A stretch of DNA of 43,737 nt. It comes from Flavobacteriales bacterium (lineage in GTDB: Bacteria > Bacteroidota > Bacteroidia > JANQJC01). The notes under the pieces were generated by a model. The model made no database searches and had not been told where the DNA came from. It saw only the letters and a program-made list of their open reading frames with translations. Every line of letters begins with the position of its first letter. The stretch's first letter is position 1. The DNA lies in assembly GCA_028281825.1 (NCBI GenBank), contig JANQJC010000113.1:1-43737 (forward strand). The letters are read 5' to 3'. Positions 2,825 to 11,581 of this stretch are shown here, one piece after another. The position numbers were made by a program, and so were the translations under genes.

Positions 2825-3799
2825 ATGAAAGCAATAACCTTCTACAAATACGGAAGCACGGCCAATCTGGAGTTGGAAGAAGTGCCCAAGCCAAAGCCAA
2901 AAGAAGATGAAGTGTTGATAAAAGTATATACAGCCTCTGTCAACTCATGGGATTGGGATTTGGTGAGGGGTAAGCCTTATATAGTAAGGATGATAAGTGG
3001 TGGCTTTTTCAAGCCTAATATAAACATACTAGGCTGTGATATTGCAGGTGTGGTAGAAGCTGTTGGTACTGGTGTTACAAGGCTAAAGGTGGGAGATGCC
3101 GTGTTTGGGGATATATCAGAGAGTGGGTGGGGAGGCTTTGCCGAATATGTGTGTGCACAAGAAAAATTTATGGCTTTGAAGCCCAATAGTTTATCCTTTG
3201 AACAAGCTGCAGCCATACCTCAGGCAGGTGGCTTGGCTTTGGGAGGGATTCATTTTTTGAAAGAAATAAGACCTGGTGATAAAGTGCTTTTTAATGGAGC
3301 AGGTGGTGGGGTTGGTACTATTGGTATGCAAATAGCTAAATCTTTGGGAGCGGAAGTAACAGGTGTGGATAGTGCTGAAAAGTTTGAAGTGATGCATTCT
3401 TCAGGTGCCGACCATGTGATTGATTATAAGAAGGAAGACTTAACAAAAAATGAAAAACGGTATGACAGAATTATTGATGCTGTTATAAACAGGTCTGTGT
3501 TTGATTATGCCCGGTCTCTAAACCCTGAAGGTGTTTGTGGTATAGTGGGCGGAAAAATGGGTAAAATACTTCAGGCTGCTATCATGGGTTCATGGTTATC
3601 AAAAAACAGGAAGGTAGGTTTGGTGGCCTGGAAGCCAAACGTGGAAGCGCTTGAAGAGTTAGTAAAGCTTTATGAGAATGGAAGTTTTAAGCCAATAATT
3701 GGGAAAACCTATGCTTTAAGTGAGACACCCGAAGCACTGCAAAGCATTGGAAACGGCCACACTAAAGGAAAAGCACTAATAGTAATGAATAAAGATTAG
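2825..3799 (+). CDS. Zinc-independent MDR family NAD(P)-dependent oxidoreductase (quinone reductase-like)
   Basis: Medium-chain dehydrogenase/reductase of 324 aa, the usual length for quinone oxidoreductase-like members. Residues about 1-120 form the GroES-like substrate domain, with the family segment GCDIAGVVEAVG at 70-81. Residues about 120-320 form the Rossmann domain, with the dinucleotide loop NGAGGGVGTIG at 157-167. The Cys/His zinc ligands of classical alcohol dehydrogenases are missing (the corresponding stretch reads VNSWDW), so it should be a zinc-free, probably NADPH-using reductase of quinones or enones. The substrate cannot be told from sequence. It is a paralogue of the 4904-5869 gene: both begin MKAI, share the PKP-P-K---VLIK pattern and have nearly the same cofactor loop followed by VDS. 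The LCIB-like gene lies between them on the opposite strand. Confidence 0.9.
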   Translation: MKAITFYKYGSTANLELEEVPKPKPKEDEVLIKVYTASVNSWDWDLVRGKPYIVRMISGGFFKPNINILGCDIAGVVEAVGTGVTRLKVGDAVFGDISESGWGGFAEYVCAQEKFMALKPNSLSFEQAAAIPQAGGLALGGIHFLKEIRPGDKVLFNGAGGGVGTIGMQIAKSLGAEVTGVDSAEKFEVMHSSGADHVIDYKKEDLTKNEKRYDRIIDAVINRSVFDYARSLNPEGVCGIVGGKMGKILQAAIMGSWLSKNRKVGLVAWKPNVEALEELVKLYENGSFKPIIGKTYALSETPEALQSIGNGHTKGKALIVMNKD

Positions 3800-3835: not shown

Positions 3836-4549
3836 CTAAAGGCTTTTTATATCAATCACATCAAAATTGCGGGCATCAAAGTAATCGTCTAGCCCATAGT
3901 CTGTATTGATTATTACTCCCCCCAAAATCGCTACTTTTTCTACATTAAATTCATTTTTACATGTTCTCAGGTAATCATGGATCTTTTTATCAATTACTTC
4001 ATAAGTAGCATCTGTGATTGCCTTTTGCTGATTATCACTATTAATTATTTGCTCACGGGAAGGGAGTAAGCTTTCTTCCAATTTCATTTGTTGATAATCG
4101 TTTTCATTTATCACTGGCTTATATTCACCATCTTGAAATCGGCTTAAAGCTAACATAAGTGCACCACAAGAGTTTCCTGTTTCCTCTTGACGGGGCCTAT
4201 ACATTTTGCCTAAATCACCTTCCAGGGTTATACCAATGTGGGGTCCATAAAATATAAAGGCACTGCCTGCATCTGGAATATGATGTGCAAATGCTGTCAT
4301 ACCTGTTTCCCCAGCAAAAGGCAAACCTCCTAATCCCCCCATGATAAATGGGCCAAACAATACATTAAAGAACGTTGTCGAAGGGACATTAATATCATCC
4401 GAGCATACCGATGTAGCCATCAATACTTTAGAAATATTAATTCCATGTTCATTTTGCATTTTTCCCAAATAGTGAATAGATGTATCCTTAGCATCCATAG
4501 CGTTTGGATAATGTCTTTTTACAACCTGATCAAATTTTCTTTGTAGCAT
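3836..4549 (-). CDS. LCIB/LCIC-like carbonic anhydrase (theta-type) homologue
   Basis: Protein of 237 aa resembling the domain of algal 'limiting-CO2-inducible' proteins LCIB and LCIC, a beta-carbonic-anhydrase-like fold that hydrates CO2 in diatom members. The family pattern is visible along its length: a Cys in the stretch SVCSDDIN (C49, D51, D52), a Gly-rich stretch GPFIMGGLGGLPFAGETG at 66-83, His in AFAHHIPDAGS (H89/H90, D93), and a second Cys in GNSCGAL (C128). Two Cys and one His are what is needed for a zinc site. There is no signal peptide, so it should be cytoplasmic. It stands alone on the minus strand between two MDR oxidoreductases, with a 14-bp perfect palindrome 18 bp before its ATG. 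Some LCIB relatives are inactive as carbonic anhydrases, so family assignment is firmer than activity. Confidence 0.8.
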   Translation of the reverse strand: MLQRKFDQVVKRHYPNAMDAKDTSIHYLGKMQNEHGINISKVLMATSVCSDDINVPSTTFFNVLFGPFIMGGLGGLPFAGETGMTAFAHHIPDAGSAFIFYGPHIGITLEGDLGKMYRPRQEETGNSCGALMLALSRFQDGEYKPVINENDYQQMKLEESLLPSREQIINSDNQQKAITDATYEVIDKKIHDYLRTCKNEFNVEKVAILGGVIINTDYGLDDYFDARNFDVIDIKSL

Positions 4550-4903: not shown

Positions 4904-5869
4904 ATGAAAGCGATTGTATGCCTGAAACATGGTTCAGTTGATGTCTTAGAATTGGCTGAATTGCCTAAGCCTACACCGAAAGATAATCAGGTGTTGATAA
5001 AAATCCATGCATCAACGGTTACCATGGGCGACTCTGAAATGAGAAGGTTGCTTATACCTGCCCCTTTTAAGACTTTCCTTAGAGTGTCATTAGCCCTAAA
5101 AAACCCCAAGAAAATATTAGGTCAGGAATTGGCAGGAGAAATTGAGGCAGTGGGTAAATCAGTAACTAAATTTAAAGTTGGGGACAAGGTTTTTGCACCA
5201 ACAGATATAGCATTGGGTGCACATGCGGAATATAAATGCCTACCTGAAAAAAAACCAATAGGACGTATACCGGCTAACATGAATTACCATGAGGCTGCCA
5301 CTATACCAACTGGAGGCTTAAATGGCTTAGACTTTGTAAAAAAAGCAGAAATAAAAAGTGGAGATAAATTGCTGATTAATGGAGCGGGAGGAAGTATAGG
5401 AACCTACGCTACTCAAATAGCTAAGTCAATGGGTGCAGAAGTGACTTGTGTGGACAGTATAGAGAAACTGGAAATGCTTACCTCTATTGGTGCAGATTAT
5501 GTGATTGATTACAATGCGGAAGATTTTAGGAATAGCGGCGAGACTTATGATGCCATTATAGATATAGTGGGTTCTTGTAAGATTGCTGATACCATGCAAT
5601 CCTTGAGTAATGGGGGACGATTTATCATGGGCAATCCACGGATACCTGAAACAGTAAAAGGTCTGTTTGTTTCAAAAAGGAATGGAAAAAAAGCTATCGC
5701 CGTTTTAGCAGATTACAGGCAAGAAGATGTGGATTACCTGATTGAATTAATAGAGGCAGGAAAGATAAAGGCGGTGATTGATAAGGTGTACCCACTGGAA
5801 CGCATGAGAGAGGCACATCAATATGTTGATTCAGGAAAAAAGAAGGGGAATTTGGTTATAAGTATTTAA
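4904..5869 (+). CDS. Zinc-independent MDR family NAD(P)-dependent oxidoreductase (paralogue of 2825-3799)
   Basis: Medium-chain dehydrogenase/reductase of 321 aa. The GroES-like domain holds GQELAGEIEAVG at 73-84 and the Rossmann domain holds NGAGGSIGTYATQIAKSMG at 159-177. As in its paralogue, no catalytic or structural zinc ligands are evident (position 40 region reads TVTMGDSE), so it should be a zinc-free reductase of the quinone or enone type. The two genes share motifs along their whole length, which points to an old duplication rather than a recent one. The SnoaL-like gene follows 89 bp downstream on the same strand and may be co-transcribed. The substrate is unknown. Confidence 0.9.
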   Translation: MKAIVCLKHGSVDVLELAELPKPTPKDNQVLIKIHASTVTMGDSEMRRLLIPAPFKTFLRVSLALKNPKKILGQELAGEIEAVGKSVTKFKVGDKVFAPTDIALGAHAEYKCLPEKKPIGRIPANMNYHEAATIPTGGLNGLDFVKKAEIKSGDKLLINGAGGSIGTYATQIAKSMGAEVTCVDSIEKLEMLTSIGADYVIDYNAEDFRNSGETYDAIIDIVGSCKIADTMQSLSNGGRFIMGNPRIPETVKGLFVSKRNGKKAIAVLADYRQEDVDYLIELIEAGKIKAVIDKVYPLERMREAHQYVDSGKKKGNLVISI

Positions 5870-6410: not shown

Positions 6411-8021
6411 TCAACTATTTACTCCCGAATATTTGATGCCTGTGAGTTTATGAATATCCCAATCAAAAGTTGTAAGGTCATTAAAGTCAAATTTAGCAAC
6501 ACTATCATGCCCGCAAGCTCTTGCAATAACTTTCATCAACTCAGATGTGGAGTCAAAAAAGTTATAAAGCTGCTGTGCTGATTTATCTATTATCAATCGA
6601 CTCCTTAAGTTTTCTCTTTGTGTTGCAATGCCCACAGGACAATTATTAGTGTTGCATGCTCTCATCCCCAAGCAACCTATTGCTTGAAGTGCAGAATTTG
6701 CAACTGCTATTGCATCTGCTCCCAGCATCATGGCTTTTGCAAAATCTTCTGCAACCCGTAACCCACCAGTTATGATAAGTGTTACATTAGTTGCTCCTTT
6801 CTTATCCAGGTATTTTCTGGCTCTGGCTAAAGCAGGAATTGTTGGAACATTAATGTTGTTTCTCAAAATCTTTGGAGCTGAACCAGTTCCGCCGCCTCTT
6901 CCGTCAAGAATAATATAGTCAACCCCAACTTGCAAGGCAAAATCTATGTCAGCCTCTATGTGGCTTGCTGCAATTTTAAAACCTACTGGAATGCCTCCTG
7001 ATACGTCTCTCACTTTTTGAGCTACTTTACGAAAGTCATCTATATTATACAAGTCAGGAAAGGCTGCGGGAGAAATTGCGGTCTCACCTTCATTCAACCC
7101 TCTAACTTCTGCAATTTCTTTTGTTACCTTATCCCCGGGCAAATGCCCACCTGTTCCTGTCTTAGCGCCTTGTCCCCCTTTAAAATGAAAAGCCTGAACT
7201 TTTTCAATTTTGTCCCATGAAAATCCAAACTTTCCTGAAGCTAGTTCATAAAAATATTTGGAGTTATTGCTTTGTTCTTGGGGCAGCATTCCTCCTTCGC
7301 CACTGCAAATACCAGTTCCTGACATCTCGGCACCTTTTGCAAGGGCTATTTTAGCTTCACGTGAAAGCGCTCCAAAACTCATATCTGTTACAAACAGTGG
7401 TATATCTATAACGAGGGGCTTATTTGCTTTTGGCCCAATAGCTACTGAAGTGTCAACTTGTTCATTATCAAACAAGGGGCGCTTAGCTAATTGCGCTGGC
7501 AGAAACTGAATATCTTCCCATTTTGGTAAAGTATTTCTATCAACCCCCATTGCTTCCGAAGGCCCGTGATGACCAGTATTTTTTAAGCCGTTTTGTGAAA
7601 GTTCTTTTATGTGGAGTGAATAGGGTTCAGTATCTTCTGGATGCGTATCAGCATATAAACCCAAATAATCATCTCTTTTAAATGGTTGAGGGTTATCTTT
7701 AACAAAATCCGTCAATTCCGCTCTATTTACACAAACATTTCCTTCCTCAATGTAAGTGGTAAATTTGTGCAGAACTTCGTCATTATTGTATTCACTTACC
7801 CCTGTATCTATTCGATAGTCCCATCCATGTAAACCGCAAATAAGATTGTTGCCCTCTATGTATCCATCAGACAATAAAGCCCCCCTATGCAGGCACCTGC
7901 CATATAATACAGAAACTTCTTGATTGTATTTTATCAAAACCAAGTCAATCCCTTCTGCCAATGCATAAGTGGGCTTTTTCTCTTTTAGCTCGGCGTAATC
8001 AATCAGGCTAATTAAATCCAT
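6411..8021 (-). CDS. Rieske domain fused to FMN-binding glutamate synthase-family protein
   Basis: Protein of 536 aa. Residues about 1-110 form a Rieske-type [2Fe-2S] domain with CLH at 43-45 and CGLH at 62-65, the Cys-x-His and Cys-x2-His ligand pairs. Residues about 150-520 are the FMN-binding TIM-barrel of the large glutamate synthase subunit, with the Gly-rich phosphate loops DGRGGGTGSAP and TGGLRVAEDFAKA, and a [3Fe-4S] ligand set C450-x5-C456-x4-C461 in the usual context. The N-terminal glutaminase domain of true GltB is absent, so ammonia would have to come from elsewhere, or the enzyme works on another substrate. The Rieske domain could feed electrons to the FMN. No gltD-like gene is present. 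It is monocistronic, with about 195 bp upstream. Confidence 0.9.
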   Translation of the reverse strand: MDLISLIDYAELKEKKPTYALAEGIDLVLIKYNQEVSVLYGRCLHRGALLSDGYIEGNNLICGLHGWDYRIDTGVSEYNNDEVLHKFTTYIEEGNVCVNRAELTDFVKDNPQPFKRDDYLGLYADTHPEDTEPYSLHIKELSQNGLKNTGHHGPSEAMGVDRNTLPKWEDIQFLPAQLAKRPLFDNEQVDTSVAIGPKANKPLVIDIPLFVTDMSFGALSREAKIALAKGAEMSGTGICSGEGGMLPQEQSNNSKYFYELASGKFGFSWDKIEKVQAFHFKGGQGAKTGTGGHLPGDKVTKEIAEVRGLNEGETAISPAAFPDLYNIDDFRKVAQKVRDVSGGIPVGFKIAASHIEADIDFALQVGVDYIILDGRGGGTGSAPKILRNNINVPTIPALARARKYLDKKGATNVTLIITGGLRVAEDFAKAMMLGADAIAVANSALQAIGCLGMRACNTNNCPVGIATQRENLRSRLIIDKSAQQLYNFFDSTSELMKVIARACGHDSVAKFDFNDLTTFDWDIHKLTGIKYSGVNS

Positions 8022-9865: not shown

Positions 9866-10612
9866 ATGGGTGTTAAATACAGCATAACGGAAAGCTTTGG
9901 GCGCAATTTGGCAGAGTTGCTTTCAGAGAGAATTATTCAGGTTTATCCCAAATTTGATAGTGCGCGATATATTTCAGCAATTGGGCAAAAATGTGAGGGC
10001 CTTAGTTATACCAAGAGAGTAGAGCTACATGCAGATGAATTAGCTCTTTATATGCCCAGCGATTATGAGAAAGCAATAGGTCTATTCGTGAAAATATTAG
10101 GGCCTGAAAATCCAAATGAAACGGGTATGTTTACTAATTACTATTGGTTGTTACCTATTGGCAAGTATGTAGAGAAATATGGATTGGATAAATACGAAAC
10201 CTCTATTGCGGCTATATCAGAAATTACCAAACGCAACACAGGTGAATATGCCATAAGGCCATATATAAGAAAGTACCCAGAAAAAGCCTTGCAACAAATG
10301 AAAAAGTGGGCACAATCAGAAAACTTTCATTTAAGAAGGTTGTCTTCTGAAGGCCTTAGGCCTAAATTACCGTGGGCACCAAAATTGGATACTTTTATCG
10401 ATAATCCTAAACCTGTATTTGAAATATTAGAATTGCTGAAAGAAGATAACATCAAGTTCGTCCAAAAGTCAGTTGCTAATCATATGACTGATTGGCTGAA
10501 AGTGAATCCTGAACCGGCGAAAGGGCTTCTACGAGATTGGAATAAGTCCAATAATCCCAACACTCAGTGGATAGTGAAAAGGTCAACTAGAAAGATAAGT
10601 ATAGAAGATTAA
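9866..10612 (+). CDS. DNA alkylation repair protein, AlkC/AlkD-like HEAT-repeat glycosylase
   Basis: Protein of 248 aa built of helical HEAT-like repeats, as in the AlkC and AlkD 3-methyladenine DNA glycosylases that remove alkylated bases without base flipping. The central segment LRRLSSEGLRPKLPWAP (about residues 157-173) is characteristic of the AlkC branch, and the later stretch NIKFVQKSVANHMTDWLK (about 204-221) fits the last repeats. No signal peptide, so cytoplasmic. It may share a transcript with the secreted protein 28 bp upstream. It is convergent with the bestrophin gene, separated by 15 bp. Family assignment is good. Substrate range within the family is not visible. Confidence 0.85.
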   Translation: MGVKYSITESFGRNLAELLSERIIQVYPKFDSARYISAIGQKCEGLSYTKRVELHADELALYMPSDYEKAIGLFVKILGPENPNETGMFTNYYWLLPIGKYVEKYGLDKYETSIAAISEITKRNTGEYAIRPYIRKYPEKALQQMKKWAQSENFHLRRLSSEGLRPKLPWAPKLDTFIDNPKPVFEILELLKEDNIKFVQKSVANHMTDWLKVNPEPAKGLLRDWNKSNNPNTQWIVKRSTRKISIED

Positions 10613-10627
10613 GTTGCTTTTTAATGG

Positions 10628-11581
10628 CTAGTTCATGTATTTCACATCAAATCTACCAACTTTAACTGGAATTGGTTTAGGTAAGTCGGTTTCGCCCAAC
10701 ATTTGCCTTAAATCGATTTCTATTGCTCGTGATATGGTAGTCATTGGGGTATCGGCTGCCCTGTTTTCAAATGGTTCTTCGGTAATATTTCCTGACTTTT
10801 CAAGTATTGAGAATACAAATGAAATGGCGATACTCATTGGCATTGTCAACCACCCCATTTCTTTCACCAATGCCAAAGGTAAGCAAAGCACAAAAAGCCA
10901 AAGAAAAACTCTTGTGAAATAGTTATAGTAGTAGGGAAACACCGTATTCTTAATACGCTCACTTTTGCCTTGTAGATTATAGAATTCCTCTAGTTTTTCT
11001 GCAAGCTCGATGTGGCGAAAGCTATCTATTATCCCTTTCTCATAGGCGTACTTCAATTCCAAACCTTGCTTGTTGATGAGTTGAGCAGGCTTATTGATGT
11101 ATGCCTCTAAATCCTTCATATCATCATCGGATAAGTATTCTTTTAAGTCACTCCAATTATCTTGTTTTCTCAGATGGGTTGTGAGTGCATATAACCAAGC
11201 AATGTGTCGGTAAATCATTTGCTTTTGCCATTTTTTCAACTCTTGTTCAGACACCTGAATGTTGGGGTTGTTGGCGTCAGAGGAGAAAGATATCACTTGC
11301 ATGCCAAAAGTTCTTGAATAGTTGACTATGCCACCCCAAATTTTTCTAGCCTCCCACCATCTGTCATAGGCTGAATTATTTCTAAATGCCAGGAATATTG
11401 CCAATCCACCTCCAAGCACTGTAACCGGTGCCACCGGCAACTCCATATCAGTGATATCCCAGTACTCATGGATAAAACAAATGATGAAGGAAATAAGCGT
11501 GAACTTGAATATCCTGGTTCTATTATGAGTTATTATACCCCTTGCTTCTAAAAGCGGTTTGCCTGAAAATGAAATGAGCAT
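10628..11581 (-). CDS. Bestrophin family ion channel
   Basis: Protein of 317 aa, the usual size for bacterial bestrophins, which form pentameric ion channels (chloride in animals, cation-selective in a Klebsiella member) in the inner membrane. Hydrophobic helices are visible at about 25-42 and 52-70, followed by RNNSAYDRWWEARKIWG, a bestrophin hallmark, and again at about 210-250. The C-terminal part carries the conserved stretch EEPFENRAADTPMTTISRAIEIDLR. The N-terminal sequence SGKPLL is also typical. The gene is divergent from the pentapeptide repeat gene, with a 13-bp palindrome in the shared spacer. Confidence 0.9.
   Translation of the reverse strand: MLISFSGKPLLEARGIITHNRTRIFKFTLISFIICFIHEYWDITDMELPVAPVTVLGGGLAIFLAFRNNSAYDRWWEARKIWGGIVNYSRTFGMQVISFSSDANNPNIQVSEQELKKWQKQMIYRHIAWLYALTTHLRKQDNWSDLKEYLSDDDMKDLEAYINKPAQLINKQGLELKYAYEKGIIDSFRHIELAEKLEEFYNLQGKSERIKNTVFPYYYNYFTRVFLWLFVLCLPLALVKEMGWLTMPMSIAISFVFSILEKSGNITEEPFENRAADTPMTTISRAIEIDLRQMLGETDLPKPIPVKVGRFDVKYMN

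Follow-up and report, generated by a model that had tools for sequence, protein, structure and literature searches.

The window, by which we mean the whole 43,737-nucleotide stretch of DNA that was analysed, carries a gene for an LCIB-type carbonic anhydrase (CA). Homologues and gene content point to a Bacteroidota host. The open reading frame encodes 237 amino acids and runs on the minus strand (4549..3836), with an ATG start at 4549. The interval named in the preliminary description holds a real gene; a plus-strand reading of it is ruled out by stops all along. The features that matter here are as follows.

2825..3799, plus strand: zinc-type alcohol dehydrogenase/quinone reductase; convergent neighbour, outside the system
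3836..4549, minus strand: LCIB-type (theta/beta-like) carbonic anhydrase gene, 237 amino acids, assigned by PF18599 match, fold and residues
4550..4903, minus strand: LCIB upstream region, 354 bp, with no Zur-type palindrome
4904..5869, plus strand: second alcohol dehydrogenase/quinone reductase; divergent neighbour
10628..11581, minus strand: Bestrophin_2 anion-channel gene, 6 kb away on the same strand as LCIB, not co-transcribed

The LCIB gene is thus flanked on both sides by oppositely oriented alcohol dehydrogenase genes, and the divergent one at 4904..5869 indicates that LCIB is transcribed alone. Elsewhere in the window are two fused genes, one joining a class III adenylate/guanylate cyclase domain to TPR repeats (42-2132, 1.7 kb from LCIB) and the other an unusual combination of a Rieske domain with a glutamate-synthase-type FMN domain (6411-8021). 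Some class III cyclases respond to bicarbonate.

Membership of the LCIB family, as first proposed, is borne out by profile search. PF18599 (LCIB_C_CA) covers residues 30-233 with 175.5 bits against a cutoff of 25 (E 1.3e-51) and was the only family listed at E 0.01, Pro_CA (PF00484) not being among the matches. Such membership is ordinary, and bacterial LCIB homologues as such are already known, the family model itself including them. Sequence matches among solved structures were 6kfs (E 5e-36), 9vzj/9w05, PtLCIB4 from Phaeodactylum tricornutum (5b5y), and LCIB and LCIC from Chlamydomonas reinhardtii (CrLCIB, 5k5w; CrLCIC, 5b5x). The protein has no obvious secretion signal and is predicted to be cytosolic.

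An AlphaFold2 model of high confidence (mean pLDDT 91.9, pTM 0.90) is closest to PtLCIB4 and 6kfs (TM 0.88), then to CrLCIB/LCIC (TM 0.63-0.69) and, third, to classical beta-CAs (Foldseek E 4e-5 to about 1e-4, TM about 0.4-0.5). PtLCIB4 and 6kfs share with the window protein its fold, the Cys-Ser-Asp motif and the positions of the His and second Cys, at about 30-34% identity, whereas the C. reinhardtii proteins share the Pfam family and general fold at 17-19% identity. Canonical beta-CAs (PF00484) have a distantly similar fold and ligands (Cys-x-Asp, His, Cys) but no significant sequence match.

Alignment of 25 homologues places C49, D51 (the gate Asp), H90 and C128 on the PtLCIB4 motif, with H90 equivalent to PtLCIB4 H88 and S50 at the position of S47. 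The metal pattern suggested earlier (an Asp with C49, H89/H90 and C128) therefore holds for all but one of its residues: H89 is ruled out as a ligand, as it is replaced in distant family members. C49, S50, D51, H90, R118 and C128 are invariant in 79 of 79 close homologues. Superposition of the model on PtLCIB4 suggests that the ligands C49, H90 and C128 sit in one pocket, the arrangement that the preliminary description had looked for in a predicted structure. PtLCIB4 was reportedly found to be active by Jin et al. in 2016, and the window protein has Ser where PtLCIB4 was altered in the S47R mutant. From sequence and model, we infer a soluble, probably dimeric LCIB/theta (beta-CA-like) carbonic anhydrase that would interconvert CO2 and bicarbonate, with one catalytic metal bound via C49, H90 and C128 in a site that also includes D51 and R118.

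These residues also bear on the reading that the protein is an inactive, CO2/bicarbonate-binding structural or regulatory subunit, a role suggested for recombinant Chlamydomonas LCIB/LCIC. The C. reinhardtii proteins form a chloroplast CO2-leak barrier and lack CA activity as purified recombinant proteins (PMC5876011), and a distant Bacteroidota member encoded beside a beta-CA (locus L095) lacks the first Cys. However, the invariance of the catalytic residues, the PtLCIB4-like Ser after the ligand Cys and a fold nearest to PtLCIB4 and 6kfs, not to CrLCIB/LCIC, make an inactive subunit unlikely in our view.

A scan of 84,980 genomes for close LCIB loci returned 79, nearly all in marine Bacteroidota (Aquimarina, Tenacibaculum, Allomuricauda, Croceivirga, Reichenbachiella, Flammeovirga, Phaeodactylibacter and others). 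Only 17 of 395 genomes sampled evenly across the class encode any PF18599 protein, so the gene is patchy in the class. Close homologues are 62-86% identical to the window copy in protein sequence, and identity at fourfold-degenerate sites, taken over the nearest relatives, is about 15-38% versus 27% expected at saturation. High protein identity with nearly saturated fourfold sites indicates old divergence under strong constraint on the protein. Given 79 homologous loci with these properties, conservation of the gene is far beyond chance. Near-saturation also rules out recent horizontal transfer as the source of 80-86% identity across families. Older transfers between lineages are nevertheless likely, because families are intermixed in the LCIB gene tree and LCIB identity (mean 81%), higher than that of GyrA (mean 72%), does not follow it (Spearman -0.13).

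By gene content, LCIB is a second carbonic anhydrase in most hosts: beta-CA is encoded in 40 of 50 LCIB genomes and in 306 of 395 genomes of the class. The idea that LCIB genomes are poorer in beta-CA than the class at large was rejected (13 of 17 versus 306 of 395).

The genes within 10 kb of LCIB were counted in 78 close loci. The commonest are those for a COG0523 GTPase (35 loci), a Fur-family regulator (22), MerC (19) and a His-rich FtsX-type permease with an ABC ATPase; HupE/UreJ, GTP cyclohydrolase I (FolE, 14 loci) and DUF1826 (9 loci) are also common. At least one of COG0523/ZigA, Fur-family/Zur, MerC, DUF1826 and FolE is present in 43 of the 78, and in a 5-Mb genome the chance of a given cluster lying this close is well below 1%. 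COG0523 together with zur, folE and paralogues of zinc enzymes is a signature of Zur regulons, for which gamma-CA paralogues are on record as members (Haas et al. 2009, PMC2770081).

About half of the 78 loci have the palindrome AAATGCAACnnnGTTGCATTT ahead of LCIB or of the operon that contains it. De novo palindrome search recovered GCAAC-N3-GTTGC exactly in 32 upstream regions, versus 2 for the commonest shuffled word, and the matrix built on the box has the consensus TAAATGCAACnnnGTTGCATTTA. Strong sites number 98 in 1.51 Mb of loci and 0 in 0.38 Mb of shuffled sequence; the genes behind them include LCIB (25), COG0523 (24), MerC (17) and Fur (11). In 30 of 40 boxed loci, TAnnTTT begins 24-26 bp past the centre of the box, where about 0.7 would be expected. 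We take this element to be the -7 element of a Bacteroidota-type promoter. On that assignment the box overlies the predicted -33 region, and therefore a bound repressor would block transcription. A Zur-type operator at the promoter is accordingly seen in relatives, from the frequency of the box, its fixed -7 spacing and its occurrence at zur-zigA in the genome of the window. Whether a locus has the box shows no association with whether the genome has a beta-CA (Fisher p 0.66). Neither box nor zinc neighbours are present in 19 of the 78 relatives. Overall, the pattern suggests that LCIB in most Bacteroidota relatives is a member of a predicted zinc-starvation (Zur) regulon.

At locus L048 (10686-12419) and 13 other loci, a PhoX-type phosphatase gene lies just downstream of LCIB, with its own Zur-type box in three of them. 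PhoX is not known to use zinc, so the phosphatase may be another zinc-sparing replacement.

The genome from which the window comes has a zinc cluster of its own, on another contig.

L145 (G000:C124:3777-10701): zur-like gene, two tandem boxes, zigA-like COG0523 gene, 76-amino-acid ORF, DUF1826, merC, folE, TonB-dependent receptor gene

The best NCBIfam matches of its Fur-family and COG0523 proteins are Zur and ZigA, each scoring under its curated cutoff, and the name zur-like reflects context as well as that match. The exact sequence TGCAACNNNGTTGCA occurs once in 4.0 Mb of this genome, between these two genes, with a second near-perfect copy there. This is an independent check on the pattern in relatives, and on both grounds the palindrome most probably acts as the Zur box in these bacteria.

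The window LCIB gene lies outside this zur-zigA-DUF1826-merC-folE cluster. Its 354-bp upstream region contains no Zur-type box, the best matrix score there being -1.1 compared with >13 in boxed relatives, so the operator seen in relatives is absent from this copy. A hidden box elsewhere in the window was considered and rejected; the top scores (14.8 at 10227 and 10.4 at 355) are both away from LCIB. What the region does have is a promoter-like TAnnTTTG 174 bp before the LCIB ATG and, close to the start codon, a perfect 14-bp palindrome, AAGTCAATTGACTT, which may be due to chance. The Zur-type switch was either lost from this copy or never present; loss is probable, because its nearest relatives in the tree carry the box.

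Neither an alpha-CA nor a beta-CA was detected in this genome (96% complete assembly), and for this reason the unlinked window LCIB probably serves as a general carbonic anhydrase and as the main one of alpha/beta type, a conclusion drawn from one genome. It may not be the sole carbonic anhydrase, since two gamma-CA-like hexapeptide proteins are also encoded.

The bestrophin gene in the window raises another possibility, namely a bicarbonate-handling unit in which LCIB makes or uses the bicarbonate that passes a channel encoded 6 kb away, comparable to the proposal for algal BST1-3 and LCIB. A parallel exists in a second LCIB subfamily (34% identity), where three genomes have Bestrophin_2 directly upstream of LCIB and in the same orientation. 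These form apparent operons.

L135:5013-6771: LCIB with Bestrophin_2
L136:4708-6471: LCIB with Bestrophin_2
L138:2227-5879: LCIB with Bestrophin_2

A Na+/H+ antiporter gene stands in front once and an ion-channel-like gene twice, and these operons could be bacterial bicarbonate-handling units. In algae, LCIB and BST1-3 are both counted among one set of low-CO2 genes (PMC12891040). For the window, however, about six genes on both strands separate LCIB from bestrophin, and in its own subfamily bestrophin lies within 10 kb in only one fetched locus (L059). We consider a bestrophin partnership of the window copy unlikely.

Another arrangement, at L143 (4133-5699), resembles an active/inactive pair: behind a beta-CA gene comes one for an LCIB homologue in which the first ligand Cys has been lost (SIGSDE).

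An unannotated protein of about 165 amino acids, with the pattern CPTDxLE ... SLGNS, is encoded directly downstream of LCIB at about 29 of the 78 loci.

L001:10891-11388: family member
L020:10734-11231: family member
L029:10721-11215: family member
About 26 other loci: family members

This protein has no family or PDB sequence match and no profile link to beta-CA or LCIB. Its likeness to beta-CA comes from fold comparison: all 50 best PDB matches of the predicted structure (pLDDT 79, pTM 0.77) are beta-CAs, the best at E 3.1e-7. By inspection, two of the three zinc ligands are missing: one Cys remains, with the Asp, in the CPTD motif, but there is neither His nor Cys where the second ligand motif would be. 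It is a candidate zinc-free carbonic anhydrase or pseudoenzyme partner of LCIB. No relative was found in the window or in the fetched stretches of its genome among the best 20 tblastn matches listed.

Taking these lines together, the reading that we favour, with fair though limited confidence, is that LCIB is a carbonic anhydrase that would be controlled by Zur in most relatives and called up at low zinc, and that the window copy has been freed from the operator. Zinc-loaded Zur on AAATGCAACnnnGTTGCATTT over the -33 region would shut off the LCIB gene or operon, including partners such as COG0523/ZigA, DinB-like and other genes. Upon zinc depletion the repressor would leave, and LCIB would be produced in addition to the usual beta-CA and serve as a replacement or metal-flexible enzyme. 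The window copy, outside the zinc cluster and without the operator, is probably expressed constitutively. The protein would be a cytosolic metal-dependent enzyme supplying bicarbonate. The uses put forward in the preliminary description, bicarbonate for carboxylases and pH balance, are reasonable but generic: the relatives point to a more specific role in zinc starvation, and general bicarbonate supply is most likely for the operator-free window copy.

Nothing in the sequence indicates zinc independence, because all three metal ligands are kept. Their retention implies that the enzyme would either use another metal or be made in extra amounts. The latter would make LCIB a zinc-binding reserve or high-affinity carbonic anhydrase, produced in quantity at zinc shortage without metal substitution. 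Retained zinc ligands fit this, as does the remark of Haas et al. (PMC2770081) that zinc sites persist in several Zur-regulated paralogues, which may raise enzyme copy number. Such an enzyme would still demand zinc when it is scarce, and why a different CA family was selected would be left unexplained; we think it rather unlikely. A broader proposal, which we put forward tentatively, is a zinc-starvation carbonic anhydrase module in marine Bacteroidota, comprising LCIB using little or no zinc, often with the zinc-ligand-poor beta-CA-fold protein, all under Zur; lineages like that of the window would have freed LCIB as a standing carbonic anhydrase.

The closest regulatory counterparts are the Cam gamma-CA paralogues of Cupriavidus and Pseudomonas, likewise second carbonic anhydrases under Zur beside COG0523 and replacement enzymes (PMC2770081). 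Cam is of the gamma class, with a hexapeptide fold, in Proteobacteria, whereas the LCIB of the relatives is of an unrelated type, in Bacteroidota, with a different operator. PtLCIB4 has an algal, CO2-concentrating context and no known link to a zinc regulon. In Chlamydomonas, a COG0523-type protein represses CO2-concentrating genes including LCIB and BST1/3 (2026, PMC12891040), a suggestive parallel to the bacterial COG0523-LCIB linkage and not evidence of homology.

No report of the Zur-LCIB link, the Bacteroidota Zur box, the bestrophin-LCIB operons or the beta-CA-fold neighbour was found in the open-access papers searched, which is weak evidence of novelty as most subscription papers lay outside that set. 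A review of Zur makes no mention of Bacteroidota (PMC6103462), and our analysis supplies a candidate definition of the Zur box for this phylum. Placement in a zinc-starvation regulon would give bacterial LCIB a concrete low-zinc carbonic anhydrase role in marine bacteria, and the zinc-sparing carbonic anhydrases of diatoms would then have a parallel in bacteria. Such a placement bears on metal use across the whole LCIB family.
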